DNA of 59,799 nt from a virus, in IMG/VR virus record IMGVR_UViG_3300025694_000005, positions 1 to 59,799 of that record; one strand, given 5' to 3'. Below the pieces are notes generated by a model. It was not told the DNA's origin, did not search any database, and worked only from the letters and a program-made list of their open reading frames with translations. This document shows positions 1,134-45,326 of this stretch, in pieces; within the stretch, counting starts at the first letter, position 1; each line of letters starts with the position of its first letter. The position numbers were made by a program, and so were the translations under genes.

Positions 1134-1162
1134 ATAATAGCAGACAGATAACAAAATGTCAA
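1134..1162 (-). promoter_or_regulatory. Sigma70-like promoter
   Basis: Minus strand: TTGACA (1162-1157), 17-nt spacer, TATTAT (1139-1134). A TATAAT also sits 3 nt further down. The -35 overlaps the stop codon of the small ORF at 1159-1305. It points at the structured stretch 845-1127. Confidence 0.6.
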
Positions 1163-1305
1163 GATCTTTTTTTCTCATCTATAAGGGATTGCTGCACAGC
1201 CTTGAGAAATTCATCAAAGCCTTTTTCGTCCTCCAACATAAGTGCGATTGCTAAATCTTTTTCTTTGCGTGCTTCTTTAATTTTATCAGAAAAAGAAAGC
1301 CCCAC
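1159..1305 (-). CDS. Small protein coupled to the methyltransferase gene
   Basis: 48 aa if it starts at the GTG overlapping the upstream stop in a TAGTG arrangement; a GAGG lies about 9 nt upstream inside the methyltransferase gene. The sequence is a plausible charged helical protein (DKIKEARKEKDLAIALMLED... ending KKRS). I do not recognise it. The hairpin at 1299-1316 covers its start, so expression would depend on read-through and coupling. The alternative start at Met23 has no ribosome binding site. Confidence 0.45.
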   Translation of the reverse strand: MGLSFSDKIKEARKEKDLAIALMLEDEKGFDEFLKAVQQSLIDEKKRS

Positions 1306-1318
1306 TACTGCGGGGCCT
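1292..1318 (-). terminator. Terminator overlapping the methyltransferase stop codon
   Basis: On the minus strand GGCCCC and GGGGCT-type arms around an 8-nt loop are followed by TTTCTTTTTCTG. The 5' arm encodes the last codons, A-P-Q-stop, of the methyltransferase. The same sequence recurs at 2556-2573. Confidence 0.7.
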
Positions 1319-1874
1319 CATCGTACGTCTCTCTTGCTAACTCATTCGCTAAGTCACTCTGTTCCTTACTAGCGGGAGGAACGAAGAACACACCTTTCGG
1401 AAGCCTTCCAGTGTCGTCCCAAACATACCAAGCATAGTCAGTCGCATCAGTTCCTCGCCCCGTGAAGGACGGTCGCTTCGACAATACATGCAATGCCGTA
1501 GGAGTATTCTCCTTCCACCACTCATGACGCCCAATACTACCAAGAAAGTTAATTCTTAGTAGCATGAGGCAAGTATTACTATGTGCTAGTGAATGATCGA
1601 TAAACTCCTTAGCGATACTAAAGGGAGGATTTGTAAGAATCAGATCCGTACCTTCATTCCATTCGAAGAAATCTTTATCCTCAGTAATCTCACTATAGGT
1701 GCAGGTTAAACCGCACTCCTCTTCGAGAAAGTACTGAATGCGACCATCTCCTCGACAAGGCTCGTGAGCGTTCTCGAAGAGTGACCAATCTATTTCTAGA
1801 TTCTCATAACACCACGGCGGTGTTGCGTAAAAGTCAGTCGGGTTAAGCCGCAGCCCTGTTTTTTGTCTTGACAT
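1305..1874 (-). CDS. DNA adenine (N6) methyltransferase-like protein
   Basis: 189 aa. Amino-methyltransferase motif IV, TNPPFS, is at residues 81-86 (catalytic N/DPPY/F class) and a SAM-binding glycine motif, EPCRGDGRI, at 38-46. The N-terminal FYATPPW also resembles phage adenine methyltransferases. It would methylate adenine in DNA; the target sequence cannot be read off. It has a GAGAGGAAC ribosome binding site and lies 31 nt downstream of the MutH/Sau3AI-like nuclease, apparently in one operon. Together they could protect phage DNA and cut unmodified DNA, or act in mismatch-repair-like strand marking; that link is inferred. Confidence 0.8.
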   Translation of the reverse strand: MSRQKTGLRLNPTDFYATPPWCYENLEIDWSLFENAHEPCRGDGRIQYFLEEECGLTCTYSEITEDKDFFEWNEGTDLILTNPPFSIAKEFIDHSLAHSNTCLMLLRINFLGSIGRHEWWKENTPTALHVLSKRPSFTGRGTDATDYAWYVWDDTGRLPKGVFFVPPASKEQSDLANELARETYDEAPQ

Positions 1875-1905
1875 TATCTATAGTTCCTCTCTTTGTAGGT
1901 TTTCC

Positions 1906-2466
1906 TCATGCTAATATTGCTTTTGCTTTTTGTGCTCTAGGAGGATACACTCCAAAAAATAAATAATGAGAGGCAGGTCTAGAAATATATAAGGATCTAG
2001 TTTTTTTAGCTTCTCCACCTTTCCCTTGAGTTTTAGAAACCCATATTTCTGTGTCTTTTTGTGAACAATTCATTGGGCCTTTTGAAATGATCCAATCTAC
2101 TTCTTTGTCAAAATATTCTTTAAATATAGGATTTTCTTCTAGTATTCTAAGAATTTTACAATATACAATTTGACCTGCTAAATTTCGACCTACAACTAAT
2201 ATGTTTTCTAGTTTCTTTTTAATATAGTCCTTTTCCCATGTGCTACAAATCCTAAAGTCTTCTTTTACCTGACCTTTTTCATTAAGAGAAAAAGTTTTTA
2301 ATTCACCATCTTCAAAGTCTAACTGCTTAGTACCAGGCTTAATACCTAAAATCTTTTCTAAAGCCATACCGTTAGCTCCTTTGTTTTTCTGAGTACTTTC
2401 TGCTAAGACGCACTCTGCACTATGTACGTAGGGGGTTATCAAATTATATGCTTCTTCAGTTTTCAT
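1906..2466 (-). CDS. MutH/Sau3AI-like restriction endonuclease
   Basis: 186 aa. The block NKGANGMALEKILGI followed by LDFEDGELKT matches the MutH/Sau3AI nuclease core: Glu37, Asp50, Glu55 and Lys57 fit the E...D...ExK metal-binding set. Known family members cut at or next to GATC, MutH nicking unmethylated DNA and Sau3AI making double-strand breaks. Here the specificity is unknown. It is the first gene after the promoter at 2500-2528, whose spacer palindrome contains two GATC sites, and it is followed by an adenine methyltransferase. The nuclease fold is a strong call; its in vivo role is inferred. Confidence 0.82.
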   Translation of the reverse strand: MKTEEAYNLITPYVHSAECVLAESTQKNKGANGMALEKILGIKPGTKQLDFEDGELKTFSLNEKGQVKEDFRICSTWEKDYIKKKLENILVVGRNLAGQIVYCKILRILEENPIFKEYFDKEVDWIISKGPMNCSQKDTEIWVSKTQGKGGEAKKTRSLYISRPASHYLFFGVYPPRAQKAKAILA

Positions 2467-2499: not shown

Positions 2500-2528
2500 A
2501 TTATACACGGATCGAGGATCCGTGTCAA
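2500..2528 (-). promoter_or_regulatory. Consensus sigma70 promoter with palindromic GATC operator
   Basis: Minus strand TTGACA (2528-2523), 17-nt spacer, TATAAT (2505-2500). The spacer is filled by a perfect inverted repeat with arms ACACGGATC (2505-2513) and GATCCGTGT (2517-2525) and a 3-nt centre, reaching into the -35 and -10. Each arm contains GATC. It drives the nuclease and methyltransferase genes. Confidence 0.85.
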
Positions 2529-2883: not shown

Positions 2884-2988
2884 TTAGCTAAACACATTTC
2901 TTCGAATGACGATAACAGGTACCGCCCTTATAGGCACTGGCGCTGCTTTTCGTATTGTTACTTGGATATGATTAGTTACATGACTCAT
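2884..2988 (-). CDS. Possible microprotein (34 aa)
   Basis: 34 aa, starting at an ATG that overlaps the stop of the EF-hand gene (ATGA), which favours coupled translation. Val/Ile-rich and basic with two Pro; no recognisable domain. It ends just before the promoter at 2846-2874. The overlap is the main support, so confidence is moderate. Confidence 0.4.
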   Translation of the reverse strand: MSHVTNHIQVTIRKAAPVPIRAVPVIVIRRNVFS

Positions 2989-3296
2989 GAGTTTTTACCC
3001 GAGTAAGCATTCGCTCCGAAGAAGGCCGCAACTAACGCACTAATTGCGATAAAGTATGTGGGTGCGATATCTCCAATGATACCCGCAGCTGTATCAAGCC
3101 CGAAGAGGCTAGTACAGAAGATACCGAAAGGATAGAGTAGCATTCCGAAGAGTGCAAACCATGTCATCTTTCTCATGGCATCACGCTGCGCATCTTCGTC
3201 TTCTAGTTTCTTTCGTTTAAATTCGAGGTGCATCATAAGCTCTTCGTCGCTTACATGACCGTCCCCATTTACGTCAGCTGGATGATGTTCACTCAT
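2985..3296 (-). CDS. EF-hand membrane protein
   Basis: 103 aa. One EF-hand calcium-binding loop, DVNGDGHVSDEE, at residues 8-19, then a charged helix (KRKKLEDEDAQRDAMRKM) and two hydrophobic segments at roughly 46-68 and 76-97. Small EF-hand membrane proteins of this type occur in marine phage genomes. Calcium binding is predicted from the loop; the role (virion, membrane or lysis timing) is unknown. It is in a run of small membrane proteins. Confidence 0.7.
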   Translation of the reverse strand: MSEHHPADVNGDGHVSDEELMMHLEFKRKKLEDEDAQRDAMRKMTWFALFGMLLYPFGIFCTSLFGLDTAAGIIGDIAPTYFIAISALVAAFFGANAYSGKNS

Positions 3297-23422: not shown

Positions 23423-24373
23423 ATGACTAATATGTTTCTTGCCAAAGCAGCCAAGGCTTATTATGAGGGCAACCCCATAATTTCTGATGCTGAGTTTGAT
23501 GTTCTTGCCGCTGATGCTAACTATACTGACGTAGGATATTCTGACGAATTCTTCGAGTTCGATCACTTGTACCCTATGTACAGTTTACAGAAAGCATTTG
23601 TAGGTGAAGAACATCCTCCTTACGACCACGCTACTGGAGCAACAGTAATCACACCCAAGTTAGATGGAGCAGCGGTTTCGCTGGGCTACTACGATGGTGA
23701 ATTAGTGCTGGCTCTTACTCGGGGTAATGGTAAGAAGGGTAGAAATATTATGAATAAAGTTAAACATCTTGTTCCTACTAGCATTACTCGCAAGGGTGTT
23801 GTTCAGATTACAGGAGAAGTTGTTGCCCCCGAGACTATTCCTAACGCTAGAAACTATGCTTCTGGTGCGCTGAATCTCAAGTCCGAAGAAGAGTTTCTCA
23901 CTAGAGAAGTTCGATTCGTAGCTTATGATATTCAGCCTCGTGTGGAAAAGTTGTGGACGGAAGACATGTCGAATCTCTCTTCGGACAATTTCGACACTGT
24001 TCTTGCGTCTAACTGGGCAGGATACCCGCAGGATGGTCTAGTGTTCCGTGTTGATAACAATGCGAAATATGAAGAGATGGGTTACACCGCTCACCACCCT
24101 CGTGGTGCCTTTGCTTTGAAAGAAAGACCTCCAGGTGTCGTTACGCGACTACTTGATGTGATCTGGCAAGTGGGTAAATCCGGTGTGGTTTCCCCTGTTG
24201 CTATCCTAGAGCCTGTGCTCATTGGAGAAGCTACTGTTGGTCGTGCCACATTACATAATATGCGGTATATTAACGAGCTTAACCTTGAAATAGGTTGTAC
24301 TGTCGAAGTAATTCGATCCGGTGAAATTATACCAAGAGTCGTGAGACGCATAGAAGGGGAAGTAAATGTTTGA
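23423..24373 (+). CDS. ligA: NAD-dependent DNA ligase, adenylation/OB subunit
   Basis: 316 aa. ISDAEFDVL in the N-terminal NAD-binding region, nucleotidyl-lysine Lys79 in KLDG, then QDGLVFRVDN and ALKERPPG-type blocks, and an OB domain (WQVGKSGVVSPVAILEPVLI, RATLHNMRYI, GCTVEVIRSGEIIPRV). The zinc finger, helix-hairpin-helix and BRCT parts of normal LigA are absent and encoded at 25078. The two products would seal DNA nicks as a complex. Phage T5 has a similar two-gene ligase. AAGG precedes the ATG. Confidence 0.9.
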   Translation: MTNMFLAKAAKAYYEGNPIISDAEFDVLAADANYTDVGYSDEFFEFDHLYPMYSLQKAFVGEEHPPYDHATGATVITPKLDGAAVSLGYYDGELVLALTRGNGKKGRNIMNKVKHLVPTSITRKGVVQITGEVVAPETIPNARNYASGALNLKSEEEFLTREVRFVAYDIQPRVEKLWTEDMSNLSSDNFDTVLASNWAGYPQDGLVFRVDNNAKYEEMGYTAHHPRGAFALKERPPGVVTRLLDVIWQVGKSGVVSPVAILEPVLIGEATVGRATLHNMRYINELNLEIGCTVEVIRSGEIIPRVVRRIEGEVNV

Positions 24374-24662
24374 TGATAGTATAGAAGACGAAAACATCTT
24401 TGGGTGGATTGGTTTGAAAGACAATGGAAGTCATTATGTATCTGCCGCAGGCTTATATGATTATTTCTTTGCTATCAAAAAAGAAACTCGTGACAAGATT
24501 CTGGAAGGATGGATTACTGCTCTAGAAGCATATCTTGACCCAGGATTCGAGGAACGAATGGAAGAATCCGAAGACGGTATTATCTATATATCCGAGTCAG
24601 CAGATTCGGTAGAAGATAAACCAAGTGGTAATATCATCCCTTTTCCTAAAATTATAAGATGA
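24366..24662 (+). CDS. Acidic hypothetical protein (98 aa)
   Basis: 98 aa, acidic, with a helical middle (RDKILEGWITALEAYLDPGF) and an acidic linker before a C-terminal NIIPFPKIIR. The last block looks like a short interaction motif. It overlaps ligA by 8 nt and the next gene by 4 nt. Not recognised. Confidence 0.6.
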   Translation: MFDDSIEDENIFGWIGLKDNGSHYVSAAGLYDYFFAIKKETRDKILEGWITALEAYLDPGFEERMEESEDGIIYISESADSVEDKPSGNIIPFPKIIR

Positions 24663-25018
24663 GTGGAGTTTATAACCTTACTTATTTTGAAAATCATCCT
24701 GAAGAAGCTACCCGCGAAGGGGTACTCTACTGCGTAGTATTAGTTAATAAACTTACTATGAAACGAGAATGTCTCAAGATAGGCATCGCTTCAGGAAGAA
24801 ATTGGAAAGACGTTTTGAAAAGGAGTCGTGGGTTTAATGGCTACGAAATTCGTATACAGAGAACTTACCACGACTCACTTTTTAATGTGTGGACGCTAGA
24901 ACAAGCATTACACGAAGAATACAAACAATTCAAGTATATACCCCAACAAAAGTTCGGTGGATATACAGAGTGTTTCGAAATAAAGAAGGAGATTATTTTA
25001 GCTATTCCGAAAAAATAA
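24659..25018 (+). CDS. GIY-YIG/T5orf172-like nuclease
   Basis: 119 aa. VLYCVVLV and CLKIGIASGRNWKDVLKRSR, then YHDSLFNVWTLEQALHEEY and GGYTECFEI, fit the T5orf172 branch of the GIY-YIG fold (Y..., K-x-G-I, R, E). Such proteins are often mobile or homing-type nucleases. It lies between the two ligase genes, as an inserted element would. Activity inferred. Confidence 0.6.
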   Translation: MSGVYNLTYFENHPEEATREGVLYCVVLVNKLTMKRECLKIGIASGRNWKDVLKRSRGFNGYEIRIQRTYHDSLFNVWTLEQALHEEYKQFKYIPQQKFGGYTECFEIKKEIILAIPKK

Positions 25019-25021
25019 TTC

Positions 25022-25050
25022 TTGACTTTTCAACTCAAACCCCGTATAAT
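25022..25050 (+). promoter_or_regulatory. Sigma70-like promoter
   Basis: TTGACT (25022-25027), 17-nt spacer, TATAAT (25045-25050), preceded by an A-rich run. It gives the second ligase gene its own promoter. Confidence 0.8.
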
Positions 25051-25077
25051 ATCTATTCAAATGTAGGAGAAAGTCTT

Positions 25078-25830
25078 TTGAGAGAAATTGTAGCACCAAC
25101 ACACTGCCCGAGTTGTTCTTCACCTTTGGTGTGGGAAAACGATCAGTTGTTCTGCTATAATACTTCTTGTGAGTCTAAGACTTATAAGTTAATCGAACAC
25201 TTTTCCTCTACTTTGAAAATTAAGGGACTAGGGCCATCATCTATTCAGAAACTCAGAATAACTTCAATACCTCAAATCTATGAACTGAGTTTGGGTGAGA
25301 TGGTAGAGGCTCTTAATTCTGAAAAACTTGCAGCAAAACTCTTTGAAGAGATTCAAGATTCCAAGAAAGTTAGTCTTTCTGAAATCCTACCCGCTTTCTC
25401 TATTCCACTAATAGGTAAATCGGCATCATCAAAGTTATGTTCTGTAGTAAGTAGTATTTATGACCTGAACGAGGAGGCTTGTACTAAGGCGGGGCTTGGC
25501 CCTAAGGCGAGCAATAATTTGCTAACCTGGTACAATACCATGTTTCTCCGCGAGTACAAGTGGCTACCTTTTTCATTTGAGTCAAATGAAGTTGTTTCTG
25601 TTATTGAGCCTAAGGGTGTTGTCTGCATTAGTGGAAAACTGACATCCTTTAAAACTAAAGCAGAAGCAGAGAAAGTTCTCATTAGCAAGGGATATATTGT
25701 GAAATCCTCCTTAACAAGAGAAGTAACAATCCTAGTGAATGAGAGTGGACTAGAATCTTCAAAAACCAAGAAAGCTAGAGATAGTGGGGTCTCTATCACA
25801 ACTAACCTTAACCAATTATTAGGAAATTAA
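25078..25830 (+). CDS. ligB: NAD-dependent DNA ligase, zinc/HhH/BRCT subunit
   Basis: 250 aa from a TTG with AGGAG 7 nt upstream; the frame stays open further 5', but that part lies upstream of the promoter and in the previous gene. Cys10, Cys13, Cys26 and Cys31 form the LigA zinc finger; helix-hairpin-helix motifs follow (LKIKGLGPSSIQKL; AFSIPLIGKSASSKL; AGLGPKASNNLL); a BRCT domain ends the protein (GVVCISGKLTSF to the C-terminus). It would complement the subunit at 23423 to give an active ligase. The symbol follows the T5 style of naming and should not be confused with E. coli LigB. Confidence 0.88.
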   Translation: MREIVAPTHCPSCSSPLVWENDQLFCYNTSCESKTYKLIEHFSSTLKIKGLGPSSIQKLRITSIPQIYELSLGEMVEALNSEKLAAKLFEEIQDSKKVSLSEILPAFSIPLIGKSASSKLCSVVSSIYDLNEEACTKAGLGPKASNNLLTWYNTMFLREYKWLPFSFESNEVVSVIEPKGVVCISGKLTSFKTKAEAEKVLISKGYIVKSSLTREVTILVNESGLESSKTKKARDSGVSITTNLNQLLGN

Positions 25831-27976: not shown

Positions 27977-28800
27977 GTGCAGTAATTGAACTACTTGAAG
28001 AGAGAGGTATTTATTACAAACTCTCTGGCAGAGATGTTTTAATTCGCTGCCTCAATCCAGAACATGACGATGGCAATCCTAGTATGAGGATTGACAAAGT
28101 TCTTGGGGTGTTCAATTGTTTCTCTTGCGGCTACAAAGGTAGTTTATTCCGCCACTATAATGTAGATTATAGTGAAACAGAAATGCGTAGGGAAAAACTA
28201 AAAAGACTTATCAATAACTTACGAGCTGCTGGTGTAGGTCTCTCGATGCCCGAAGGATTTATGTCTTATATCGGAAACTGGAGAGACATAAAGCCAGAAA
28301 CTTATAGAAAATTTGAAGCGTTTCGTCATCATGATAAGCAGTTTATAGGGAGGATTAACTTTCCTATTAAGGACGCCAGTGGAAGAATAGTCGCTTTCCA
28401 AGGTCGTGATGAAACAGGAACCTTAGACAATAAGTATATGTTCTACCCTAGTGGGGTAAAGCTACCTCTGTTTCCACAAGTTCGCCCACTACAGGGGCGT
28501 GTTATTCTCGTAGAAGGTATCTTTGATATGATAAATCTTCACGACAAAGGACTAGAGAATGCAGTATGTTGTTTCGGTGTTAAGAATTTTAACGAAACAA
28601 AGTTTAATTATTTAAAGATTTCAGGCGTTACGGGCCTTGACTTGATTTTCGATGCTGACCAAGCAGGAGTTCAAGCAGCAGAACACGTAAAGAAATTAGC
28701 GAGAGACTTTCCCGTTCGAGTAATTAGTTTAAAGTCTGGAGATCCAGGCTCACTCGGACAAAACCAAGTAACTGGACTGCGGAGAAAACTATATGGCTAG
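27973..28800 (+). CDS. DNA primase (DnaG-type)
   Basis: 275 aa. CLNPEHDDGNPSM then CFSC gives the N-terminal zinc-binding motif; the Toprim domain has VEGIFDMIN (catalytic Glu) and DADQAG (Asp pair). Short for the family but complete in its catalytic core. Lays RNA primers on the lagging strand with the helicase encoded just before. Confidence 0.9.
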   Translation: MSAVIELLEERGIYYKLSGRDVLIRCLNPEHDDGNPSMRIDKVLGVFNCFSCGYKGSLFRHYNVDYSETEMRREKLKRLINNLRAAGVGLSMPEGFMSYIGNWRDIKPETYRKFEAFRHHDKQFIGRINFPIKDASGRIVAFQGRDETGTLDNKYMFYPSGVKLPLFPQVRPLQGRVILVEGIFDMINLHDKGLENAVCCFGVKNFNETKFNYLKISGVTGLDLIFDADQAGVQAAEHVKKLARDFPVRVISLKSGDPGSLGQNQVTGLRRKLYG

Positions 28801-31075
28801 TATAGCCTTGATTGAATCAAAACCAAGTAGAAACGATTACGTTCGCTTATTCGAGAATGAGTTTGAATTTGACCGATTCTCTCTTGCTTCAGACCCTACG
28901 CTATCCAAAGTTTTAATGAAGGACGTAGATCTGGAGTTTGACCCTGATGCCTATGAATGGATAATTCTAATTGGCTCAGAACCACTAAAATATTACACGA
29001 AAGTAACTCAAGTTATGCAATATGCCGGAACTATAGTAGACGATAAATTTCTTCCTACTATTAATCCTGCAATGCTATCTTTTAAGCCAGAGGCTAAGAA
29101 GACTTGGGAAGATGCTAGAAACAATATCATCGGGTATATTTCTGGCGACAAGAAGAAGGCCGAAATAAATGACGAAAAATTTGTCGGTATTACAACAACT
29201 GAAGGGACTTTGGATTACATTCAAAGATGTATTGACTCGCCCTACGACTTTATCGGAATCGACTCAGAGACTACTGGTCTGTATCCTCGGAATGGGTATA
29301 TTCTTGGTATTAGCTTATGCTATAAACCTGATTCAGGTGCTTATATTAATGCCGATACTATTGATGAGTCTGTAGAAGAGAAACTTCAGGAGTTATTTGA
29401 TAAGAAGCGAATGGTATTCCATAACGCTAAGTTCGATATTCCAATGTTTGAGTATCATTTCAATGTGAAACTCTCACAGTTTGAAGATACAATGCTCATG
29501 CATTATATGCTTGACGAGAACCCAGGCACTCACGGCCTGAAGATGCTCGCTATGAAGTATACAGACTACGGCGATTATGAAAAACCTATGTATACTTGGA
29601 TGGACGAGTATCGTAAGCAGAATGGTGTGCTAAAAGATGATTTCAAATGGGAGTGGATTCCTTTTGAAGTTATGCAGACTTATGCTGCTATCGATGCCTG
29701 TGCTACTTTCACAATCTTTGAGAAGTTTGAAAGAGCACTGAAGAAGGGTAATCCTAACTTGATGCGTGTGTACAAGACTATCTTGTTGCCCGCTTGTAGG
29801 TTCCTTATGGCTGTTCAAGATAACGGAGTTCCTTTTGATAAGGAAAGGCTCATAGCGAGTCAAGATCTTATGCTAGAGGAAATTACTGATGCTGTTGGTA
29901 AATTGCAAAGCCATCCTGGTGTGGCCGCTTTCCAAGCAGCAGAAGGTAAAGACTTTAATCCAAACAGTGTTCTACAATTGCGTAAGTTATTGTTCGACTA
30001 TGTTGGGCTAGAGCCTACTGGAATTAAGACGGAGAAGGGAGAAAACTCAACTAATGCTGAAGTATTAGAGAAGCTCGCTCTTCAACATGAGATTCCACAG
30101 TTAATTTTAGATGTTCGTAAGAAAACTAAGATTAAGAATACTTATCTCGATAAGATTATTCCACAGCTTGATAGGGACGGTCACTTACGGACCAACTTCA
30201 ATATTCATGGAACTACATCTGGAAGACTATCTTCTAGTGGTAAATTGAATATGCAGCAACTTCCTAGAGACAATCCGATTGTGAAAGGGTGTATTCGTGC
30301 TCCCGAAGGCCATCAGATTGTTGCAATGGATTTAACAACTGCCGAAGTATATGTCGCTGCCGTATTGGCAGATGACTTGGAGCTTCAGGACGTATTTCGT
30401 TCTGGAGGAAACTTTCACTCTACGATTGCACACAAAGTATTTAAACTAGACTGTGAAGTCGAAGATGTGGCAGAGAAGTATACGACCTATCGTCAAGCAG
30501 CAAAAGCAGTAACCTTTGGTATTATGTACGGAGCCGGTGCAAATAAAATCAGTGAGCAGGTTACTAAAGATGGAGGCAAGCTTTCAGTTGTCCAGGCTAG
30601 ACAAATCATCAAAGAATACTTTGGTGCTTTCTGGAAGCTAGAGGAGTGGATTGAGGTTCAGAAAGAGCTTATCAGAAAGAATGGAAGTATCTATTCTCAT
30701 TTCGGTAGAAAGAGAAGATTACCTGATGTTAAGTCTGATAACAAAGGAGTTCAAGGACATGCCATTAGATCTGGACTTAACTTCCTAGTTCAATCTGCTG
30801 CTTCCGACATAAACTTAATCGGGGCTATAGAAGCTCACGGAATACTAAACCAGAAGAAGATGAAGAGTAAAATCTTCGCACTGGTTCACGATTCCGTGCT
30901 TGCAGAAGTTCCGAACGATGAAGTAGAAGAATATTGTTCGATATTACAAACCGAAATACAAAGAGACAGAGGTATTTATATCTCCGGCGCTCCTGTAGGT
31001 TGTGACTTTGAGATTGGCGAGGATTACTCAATGGGTAAGTTCAGTAAAAAGTATGGTAATATCGTTAACATATAA
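28793..31075 (+). CDS. DNA polymerase I family (family A) replicative polymerase
   Basis: 760 aa. Residues ~125-320 are a 3'-5' exonuclease (FIGIDSETTGLY; IDACATFTIFEK). The polymerase part has TTSGRLSSSGKLNMQQLPRD, motif A IVAMDLTTAEVYVAAVLA, motif B RQAAKAVTFGIMYG and motif C VHDSVLAEV. The residue equal to E. coli Phe762 is Phe. Motif A is unusual (usual form DYSQIELR). No 5'-3' exonuclease is fused; that activity is at 38913. Confidence 0.93.
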   Translation: MASIALIESKPSRNDYVRLFENEFEFDRFSLASDPTLSKVLMKDVDLEFDPDAYEWIILIGSEPLKYYTKVTQVMQYAGTIVDDKFLPTINPAMLSFKPEAKKTWEDARNNIIGYISGDKKKAEINDEKFVGITTTEGTLDYIQRCIDSPYDFIGIDSETTGLYPRNGYILGISLCYKPDSGAYINADTIDESVEEKLQELFDKKRMVFHNAKFDIPMFEYHFNVKLSQFEDTMLMHYMLDENPGTHGLKMLAMKYTDYGDYEKPMYTWMDEYRKQNGVLKDDFKWEWIPFEVMQTYAAIDACATFTIFEKFERALKKGNPNLMRVYKTILLPACRFLMAVQDNGVPFDKERLIASQDLMLEEITDAVGKLQSHPGVAAFQAAEGKDFNPNSVLQLRKLLFDYVGLEPTGIKTEKGENSTNAEVLEKLALQHEIPQLILDVRKKTKIKNTYLDKIIPQLDRDGHLRTNFNIHGTTSGRLSSSGKLNMQQLPRDNPIVKGCIRAPEGHQIVAMDLTTAEVYVAAVLADDLELQDVFRSGGNFHSTIAHKVFKLDCEVEDVAEKYTTYRQAAKAVTFGIMYGAGANKISEQVTKDGGKLSVVQARQIIKEYFGAFWKLEEWIEVQKELIRKNGSIYSHFGRKRRLPDVKSDNKGVQGHAIRSGLNFLVQSAASDINLIGAIEAHGILNQKKMKSKIFALVHDSVLAEVPNDEVEEYCSILQTEIQRDRGIYISGAPVGCDFEIGEDYSMGKFSKKYGNIVNI

Positions 31076-43038: not shown

Positions 43039-43857
43039 TTAAACAAACCCGTAATAAATACCAATTTCTCGATAAATATCTGGTTGACTTGTTGCAGTTT
43101 CTCTAGTCCTAAAAATTAAGGGTGAAGATGCACTCGTATTTGAAATTACAGCTTCTTCCATTAAAATTCTAAAAGAGAGTTGAAAATTTCTTCCTCCGAA
43201 TACACTATCCATAGGATTAGTCATGAGGGAGTTCAAAAGGTTTCTTTCAACATTATCATTGTAAAAACGTATATTGCCAACACTCCAGTAGTTGGTAAAA
43301 TTCGCTCCAGAGCCCCCATTAGTATTAAATCTGTTCAAGGTCCTTGGATTGACTAAAGATCCATTAATCCAGCCCGAGCCAGGAGGTTGGACTGACATTG
43401 TAATCTTCCCGCCTGTATACGCACTTTTATACTGAATAGTAAATATTGCAAATCTACCCTGGAGGACACTTAGATTGCTTGGACCTAAGTTATTTCCATC
43501 ATAACCATACCCCAGGGTAGGAATAGTACCTCCAGTAGCCGAACTAGAAACTGTAGCAGTAACAAAACCAAAATCACTTAGTAACTCAACAGCCATATCT
43601 CCATTACTAAAAGTTGTTATAAATCGATTACTAAAAGAATCTTCATCGTAGCCATACCGTGTTTTACTATAAAAATCACTCATACTAAGATTAGTATCTT
43701 GAGGCATTCCAGGAGTAGAGTCACTGTCTAATGGATGTCCTATCCACCATCTCATACTTACATTACTTTGAGTCTTAACTCCTTCATAAACCGGACCATT
43801 CATCTCGGTAAAAATTTCACTAAAAGATAACGAAGACCCTGAAGCTTTTATTGTCAT
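43039..43857 (-). CDS. Tail fibre/receptor-binding protein
   Basis: 272 aa. Opens with TIKASGSSLSFSEIFTEMNG and PQDTNLSMSDFYSKT, a repeatable opening of phage distal tail proteins, then a long Ser/Gly/Asn-rich beta region. Overlaps the collagen-like gene by 4 nt. Probably a fibre tip or adhesion protein. Confidence 0.6.
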   Translation of the reverse strand: MTIKASGSSLSFSEIFTEMNGPVYEGVKTQSNVSMRWWIGHPLDSDSTPGMPQDTNLSMSDFYSKTRYGYDEDSFSNRFITTFSNGDMAVELLSDFGFVTATVSSSATGGTIPTLGYGYDGNNLGPSNLSVLQGRFAIFTIQYKSAYTGGKITMSVQPPGSGWINGSLVNPRTLNRFNTNGGSGANFTNYWSVGNIRFYNDNVERNLLNSLMTNPMDSVFGGRNFQLSFRILMEEAVISNTSASSPLIFRTRETATSQPDIYREIGIYYGFV

Positions 43858-45326
43858 TGTTTTTTCTCCACAATCTCATTCAAGTCTTTGATCGCTTCAA
43901 TAAGTAGAGCACTAATTCTGTCATATTTAACGGCTAAAGTTCCATCAGGTCTCTCTACCACTAGTTCGGGCAAAACTTTTTTAAGTTCTTGTGCTATAAC
44001 CCCTACATCTTTTTTCCTCATAAAATAAGGATCTTCTCCCCCATGCTCAACCATGTACTCATCCGTCCAATCAAACGTTATTCCAGAGAGTGATTTTACT
44101 TTTTCTATGCTGTTGGTTATAGGAAGGATATTTTCTTTAAATCTTGAGTCTGAAGAGTAGAAAGCAGTAATATCCCCTGTTGCTCTAATAGACCCAGCTC
44201 CTCCGGTCGCGATGACCCCAACACCCAAAGAATTAACTTGTGCGTTAGAATTAGTTGAAAAGCCTCCTGTAGCTCCTTGAGCACCTTGAGCACCTTGAGC
44301 ACCTTGAGGTCCAGCACCACCTCCAGCACCTTGAGTACCTTGAGCACCTTTAGTACCTGTAGCACCTTGAGTACCTTGAGCACCTTGAGTACCTTGAGCA
44401 CCTTGAGTACCTTGAGCACCTTTAGTACCTGTAGCACCTTTAGAACCTTGAGTACCTTGAGCACCTTTAGAACCTGTAGCACCTTTAGAACCTGTAGCAC
44501 CTTTAGAACCTGTAGCACCTTTAGAACCTGTAGCACCTTTAGAACCTGTAGCACCTTGAGAACCTGTAGCACCTTTAGAACCTGTAGCACCTTTAGAACC
44601 TGTAGCACCTTTAGAACCTGTAGCACCTTTAGAACCTGTAGCACCTTGAGAACCTGTAGCACCTTGAGAACCTGTAGCACCTTTAGAACCTGTAGCACCT
44701 TTAGAACCTGTAGCACCTTTAGAACCTGTAGCACCTTGAGTACCTTGAGCACCTCCAGCACCTTGAGCACCTTTAGAACCTGTAGCACCTTGAGCACCTT
44801 TAGCACCTTGAGTACCTTGAGCACCTTGAGGACCTGGTTGAGAAGCTGCATAGGCTTCTGTAGCTAGAGCACTCCCCGCAACTTCTAGCTTACCTGACCC
44901 TATACTTAAAGTAGTACCGCCCATAACTAAACTAGTACCGCTTAAATATAAGTCTCTGAACTGAAAGGTAGGGCTACCTAGGTCAAAACCAGTGGTTCCG
45001 TCTGAGTTTACGTTCGGAATAATACTAGCCCCTACATTAATAGAACCACCGAACTCTGCTATTCGAACCTCGCCACCGGCATCCACTTCAATGCTAGGTA
45101 TTCCAGATCCATCCGCAACAGAGAAGATTGTTCCTGTTAAATCATTTGAAATTGAAAAGAGCTGACCTGCGCTGCCTTCGAAACTTAAAGTAGACGTTGT
45201 ACCATCGTCGACTGTGGATAACGTAATAGGATCGCCACTCGTTGCCCCGCTTGAGAATACTATCTTAGGGTCGGCAGCAGCGCTCGTATTTGGGGTAATA
45301 AGTATGTCTTTATCTGAATCTGCCAT
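43854..45326 (-). CDS. Collagen-like tail fibre with S74 chaperone domain
   Basis: 490 aa. An N-terminal beta-rich head domain, about 180 residues of Gly-X-Y collagen repeats (mostly GATGSK, GAQGTQ units), a short beta segment, and a C-terminal peptidase S74 domain beginning DSRFKENI with the Ser/Lys pair of the self-cleaving chaperone. The S74 domain helps trimer folding and is then released. First gene after the promoter at 45368-45396. Confidence 0.9.
   Translation of the reverse strand: MADSDKDILITPNTSAAADPKIVFSSGATSGDPITLSTVDDGTTSTLSFEGSAGQLFSISNDLTGTIFSVADGSGIPSIEVDAGGEVRIAEFGGSINVGASIIPNVNSDGTTGFDLGSPTFQFRDLYLSGTSLVMGGTTLSIGSGKLEVAGSALATEAYAASQPGPQGAQGTQGAKGAQGATGSKGAQGAGGAQGTQGATGSKGATGSKGATGSKGATGSQGATGSQGATGSKGATGSKGATGSKGATGSKGATGSQGATGSKGATGSKGATGSKGATGSKGATGSKGAQGTQGSKGATGTKGAQGTQGAQGTQGAQGTQGATGTKGAQGTQGAGGGAGPQGAQGAQGAQGATGGFSTNSNAQVNSLGVGVIATGGAGSIRATGDITAFYSSDSRFKENILPITNSIEKVKSLSGITFDWTDEYMVEHGGEDPYFMRKKDVGVIAQELKKVLPELVVERPDGTLAVKYDRISALLIEAIKDLNEIVEKKQ
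44270..44840 (-). repeat. Tandem DNA repeat coding for collagen Gly-X-Y
   Basis: Many copies of an 18-nt unit close to GCTACAGGTTCTAAAGGT (minus strand), mixed with 9-nt ACTCAAGGT-type units. This tract can expand or contract by slippage and is a hot spot for length change. It also makes long false reading frames in the other frames. Confidence 0.95.

Follow-up and report, generated by a model that had tools for sequence, protein, structure and literature searches.

Restriction is normally a weapon of bacteria against phages, and our search of the open-access literature found nothing close to restriction encoded by phages themselves. Among the described systems, Sau3AI/MutH-fold enzymes of GATC systems resemble the locus reported here in fold, in the Glu-Asp-Glu-Lys residue set and in their adjacency to a methyltransferase. 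While Sau3AI contains two MutH-like domains, the nuclease of our locus is one short domain of 186 aa in which the QIRxK motif is replaced by VSKTQ, and its partner is a phrog_799 methyltransferase, neither D12 Dam nor DpnA. Cyanophages (S-RIM8, S-IOM18, WH25-B and, as a fusion, S-8S29) also carry a phage-borne pair of Dam and a MutH-like nuclease (phrog_15364), the latter belonging to the same wider family at 24-31% identity. These pairs differ in that the methyltransferase is a D12 Dam and usually comes first, the nuclease keeps LQIRTKA, and the phages are of another type. Orphan phrog_799 enzymes of the Vequintavirinae are approximately 40-44% identical to our methyltransferase. No annotated nuclease adjoins them in the records inspected, and PVP-SE1 gp152 follows a gene for a ClpP-like protease.

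Virus-encoded nucleases adjoining a protective methyltransferase are likewise known from chloroviruses and marseilleviruses (CviAI-like systems, mel_015/mel_016), which, unlike our phage, are viruses of eukaryotes; the marseillevirus system targets GATC. To our knowledge, neither an exchangeable nuclease slot nor a shared GATC promoter is known in these systems. In chloroviruses, host DNA is thought to be degraded by the restriction-modification enzymes (PMC7019647), whereas host DNA is not degraded by the marseillevirus GATC system, for which exclusion of rivals was proposed (PMC7253447). The marseillevirus nuclease gene is transcribed before that of the methyltransferase (PMC7253447), a precedence in time that is mirrored here by gene order. 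In CfrBI, the restriction genes are controlled by promoter methylation (PMC12707154). A methylatable site would sit in the promoter of our system too, but CfrBI has divergent overlapping promoters, whereas here one promoter serves both genes and its methylation is hypothetical.

The locus lies on a stretch of viral DNA of 59,799 nucleotides (IMG/VR record IMGVR_UViG_3300025694_000005), referred to below as the window, and we consider it probable that it is a mobile restriction-modification cassette borne by a marine phage. Its features are listed in Table 1. Both open reading frames were found where a preliminary description had put them (1305-2466, minus strand), with the nuclease first, the methyltransferase downstream and a gap of 31 bp between them. 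The nuclease start lies 33 bp beyond the promoter. Because a perfect TTGACA-17-TATAAT promoter (2528-2500) stands before the nuclease and an intrinsic terminator (1319-1296) at the methyltransferase stop, the pair looks like a closed two-gene transcription unit, in line with the earlier designation as one operon. The 48-aa open reading frame beyond the terminator is probably no real gene and would fall outside the unit.

Table 1. Features of the nuclease-methyltransferase unit in the window.
Feature	Position	Strand	Basis
MutH/Sau3AI-fold endonuclease, 186 aa	1906..2466	-	open reading frame; fold; catalytic E37, D50, E55, K57
N6-adenine-type DNA methyltransferase, 189 aa	1305..1874	-	phrog_799; motif I EPCRGDG, motif IV NPPF
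Sigma-70 promoter TTGACA-CGGATCCTCGATCCGTG-TATAAT, two GATC in spacer	2500..2528	-	perfect consensus
Intrinsic terminator over methyltransferase stop codon	1296..1319	-	10-pair stem, then T-rich tail
48-aa open reading frame 3' of terminator	1159..1305	-	no meaningful family match

The lytic lifestyle of which the preliminary description also spoke is no more than putative: the window has no match to the PF00589 integrase, yet the record, which lacks end repeats, is possibly a fragment. Its DNA polymerase (28793-31075) is approximately 43% identical to those of T5-like phages, and the record may therefore be one section of a larger genome related to T5. An apparent NAD-dependent DNA ligase (23423-25830) is split between two frames, 23423-24373 and 24889-25830, and the 119-aa open reading frame in between is a possible intervening gene. 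A probable tail protein contains long collagen-like GAT/GSK/GAQ repeats (43854-45326).

Structure prediction confirmed that the nuclease is MutH/Sau3AI-like, as had been proposed. Only MutH and Sau3AI matched the AlphaFold model (pLDDT 86.9) below E 0.001 in Foldseek. With VIA-align, MutH was the best PDB match (Z 14.5, 173 residues, 3.5 A), followed by Sau3AI (Z 13.3, 162 residues), and the next families, MvaI/BcnI, reached Z 7.5, so that MutH and Sau3AI rank above all other families. In family scans, the protein matched NCBIfam MutH at E 2e-6 and MvaI/BcnI at E 0.05; its score of 25-27 bits lies far below the MutH equivalog cut-offs of 230-243 bits. Among named phages, tblastn recovered the cyanophage proteins of phrog_15364 (approximately 33% over the core, E about 0.05). 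A wider profile and the fold were required, because a single-sequence search of the PDB returned no match and a profile of window-type proteins alone matched only MutH, at E 0.23; once the cyanophage relatives were included in the profile, the match to MutH structures improved to E 3.7e-6 and covered most of the chain. The catalytic residues Glu37, Asp50, Glu55 and Lys57 are exactly those named earlier, and they are unchanged in all 19 aligned sequences. The dN/dS values of 0.24-0.57 indicate purifying selection. The protein is likely to be catalytically active.

The assignment of the second gene as an adenine methyltransferase likewise stands. It matches phrog_799 at E 9e-47 and carries TNPPFS at residues 81-86, with NPPF as motif IV invariant in 18/18 sequences. 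AdoMet motif I, EPxxGDG (EPCRGDG in the window), is invariant too, as expected of an amino (N6-adenine-type) methyltransferase, whose motif IV follows the pattern [DNS]PP[YFW]. PF02086 (D12 Dam) matched neither this protein nor the methyltransferase of L002, one of the related contigs, while a cyanophage Dam scores 208 bits. Since a sequence search of the PDB gave no match and the predicted structure is of low confidence (pLDDT 68, best Z 6.3), the specificity of the enzyme is not readable from either.

On genome contigs, the bacterial relatives of the nuclease are MutH-like and mostly measure about 190-240 aa; many are encoded within 3.5 kb of Dam-like and DpnA-like DPPY proteins (a classification by motif alone). 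The MutH-like gene of cyanophages comes after the D12 Dam, and on other contigs Dam is downstream of the MutH-like gene or none is found within 2.5 kb. In Synechococcus phage S-8S29 (L004:3038-4516), D12 Dam and nuclease form one 492-aa frame, a fusion that is either natural or an artefact of sequencing; in its sister phages the two are separate neighbours.

In IMG/VR, every one of the five nuclease copies (window, L002, L076, L077, L079) lies upstream of the same methyltransferase, the adjacency and conserved pairing that characterize type II restriction-modification. The partner, on the other hand, is exchangeable. A set of 41 loci centred on the methyltransferase was retrieved from marine environmental contigs, some of them duplicates or truncated and thus not all independent. 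At 17 of the 41 (L054, L055, L057, L059, L060, L063-L068, L071-L074, L084, L092), the upstream position is occupied by a PDDEXK_11 protein (family match E 4e-15; 8/8 members tested match), whose gene mostly abuts or overlaps the methyltransferase start. A P-loop protein precedes the methyltransferase in L056, L058, L061, L062, L078 and L094, and an HNH-looking protein does so in L090 (motifs by eye in both cases). On the methyltransferase tree, the type of partner changes at least 12 times. Several contigs (L069/70, L075, L080-83, L095, L096, L098) have the methyltransferase but no nuclease; the enzyme therefore has a use of its own, which counts against the restriction-modification reading. 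A search of plasmids found no relatives, and tblastn for the PDDEXK partner in named phages gave no match.

Inspection of the genomic context shows exchange and movement. At the genome position of the window cassette, between homologues of 2985-3296 and 303-680, L056 has the order PDDEXK - P-loop - methyltransferase behind the same GATC promoter, and in L002/L058 the order MutH - P-loop - methyltransferase is found near the homologue of 303-680. Between the window and L002, dS is 0.26 for the nucleases but saturated for the methyltransferases, which means that the nuclease gene moved independently of its partner. At least 8 distinct gene junctions in related phages hold the methyltransferase, with or without a nuclease. 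The P-loop-like protein of 513-528 aa either separates the nuclease from the methyltransferase or immediately precedes the latter. It is not present in the window and gave no usable family match (P0003); it may serve the cassette as a motor subunit.

The promoter of the window cassette reads TTGACACGGATCCTCGATCCGTGTATAAT. It is one of ten perfect TTGACA-17-TATAAT promoters in the window, where 0.09 would be expected, and none of the other nine contains the GATC pair. With these ten promoters, the phage seems dependent on host sigma-70 consensus promoters. PDDEXK cassettes are preceded by a near letter-for-letter match of the window promoter. In total, 14 distinct versions of the cassette promoter were found, all with GATC.TCGATC in the spacer, and the conserved letters extend beyond GATC (GATC.TCGATCCGT). 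We found the exact core GATCCTCGATCCGTGTATAAT in 15 IMG/VR contigs, each of them with this cassette: 14 were already known as cassette contigs, and the fifteenth, L167, has the core promoter followed by PDDEXK and the start of a P-loop gene, where the contig ends. The cassettes of L076, L077 and L079 have perfect promoters without GATC. In L060, L062, L063, L064, L065, L074 and L167, but not in the window, a strong hairpin with a T-run lies between promoter and nuclease start, possibly an attenuator.

We posit that host RNA polymerase would read the strong cassette promoter early in infection. The MutH/Sau3AI-fold nuclease would then cut DNA without the methyl mark of the cassette, and the downstream methyltransferase, sharing the same target, would mark the phage genome so that phage DNA is spared. 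The attack would fall on the host chromosome (for nucleotide supply and shut-down), on phages that co-infect the cell, or on both. Constant parts of the cassette are the methyltransferase and, within one clade, the GATC promoter, whereas the nuclease is interchangeable. The preliminary description had left the choice between a restriction-modification and a repair pair. The former is supported by the fold, the 5/5 pairing and the exchange of nucleases before the same methyltransferase; methylation-directed repair is disfavoured by a slot that accepts PDDEXK_11 and by the changed MutH recognition strand. More tentative, and rather improbable in its entirety, is the fuller picture of a mobile module in which methyltransferase and promoter stay fixed and nucleases (MutH-like, PDDEXK_11, HNH) plug into a slot, the whole being self-timed by methylation of the two promoter GATC sites and directed against the DNA of host or rivals.

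Within the restriction-modification reading, the main role of the cassette might be destruction of the host chromosome, as proposed for the chlorovirus enzymes (PMC7019647), rather than exclusion of rivals. A strong consensus promoter of its own with the nuclease gene first in the unit would suit this role, as would the nucleotide genes of the phage (open reading frames read as ribonucleotide reductase and ThyX). However, none of our results separates host destruction from exclusion, the marseillevirus precedent of undegraded host DNA points the other way (PMC7253447), and a host with methylation at that site would have its DNA spared. We regard this role as plausible but lean against it.

A specific form of the same reading is a GATC-specific pair whose methyltransferase may tune its own expression via the GATC pair that lies in the spacer separating -35 and -10. 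These sites are invariant in the 14 distinct cassette promoters, and the nine other perfect promoters of the window lack them. GATC is also suggested by MutH and Sau3AI and by the relatives adjoining Dam/DpnA-like genes, and CfrBI offers a precedent for promoter methylation (PMC12707154). The PDDEXK partners bear a faint likeness to DpnII/MboI, which is not significant (E 0.03-0.11). The recognition strand of the nuclease, on the other hand, argues against GATC. In a joint alignment, LQIRPKA of MutH corresponds to WVSKTQG in the window, with K145 in the column of Arg184, a DNA contact of MutH, and QIRxK, kept in MutH and in the bacterial and cyanophage relatives, is VSKTQ. In addition, conserved letters beyond GATC (GATC.TCGATCCGT) would equally fit a repressor operator, and the cassettes of L076, L077 and L079 lack the GATC element. 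We therefore put forward GATC self-tuning as possible but doubtful.

GATC is moderately rare in the window (111 versus 177 expected). It is scarcest in some related phages without the nuclease, and since depletion is equal or stronger in some nuclease-less relatives, we rejected it as evidence of the target. GATC, GGCC and CCGG are almost missing in some of L082/L083 and L075-L081, with or without nuclease (in L082/83, 1 GATC versus 30 expected), which suggests restriction pressure from hosts.

The main rival to a restriction-modification cassette holds that an anti-restriction methyltransferase shields phage DNA from restriction enzymes of the host, while the upstream nucleases are free-standing mobile passengers of homing type that exploit the neighbouring spot and spread by themselves. 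Such passengers would account for the methyltransferase standing alone in several contigs, for the varied nuclease types and for the separate movement of the nuclease gene. The PDDEXK_11 partners weakly resemble the homing-endonuclease PHROGs phrog_559 and phrog_9084, and the cassette lies at replication-gene junctions, which homing genes favour. Against this, all five MutH/Sau3AI-fold copies stay with this methyltransferase, and their fold belongs to enzymes of restriction and repair; we know of no homing enzymes with it. Moreover, the promoter is common to the nuclease types and exclusive to the cassette, and at many divergent loci the PDDEXK gene runs up to or into the start of the methyltransferase. 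Taken together, we judge the passenger scenario unlikely.

Phage mismatch repair, in which the nuclease, together with host MutS/MutL, would nick hemimethylated sites and the methyltransferase would act as Dam, has MutH as the closest fold in its favour, but is highly improbable because a non-MutH nuclease, PDDEXK_11, fills the same slot at the same genome position (L056), the recognition strand is unlike that of MutH, the equivalog score is far too low and the methyltransferase is not a D12 Dam.

If the locus is indeed a restriction-modification cassette with constant methyltransferase and promoter and an exchangeable nuclease, it would show that phages use restriction themselves and evolve it by swapping parts. 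The shared promoter offers a direct, testable handle on both target site and timing, and the Dam-MutH pairs of cyanophages suggest that the principle is wider.
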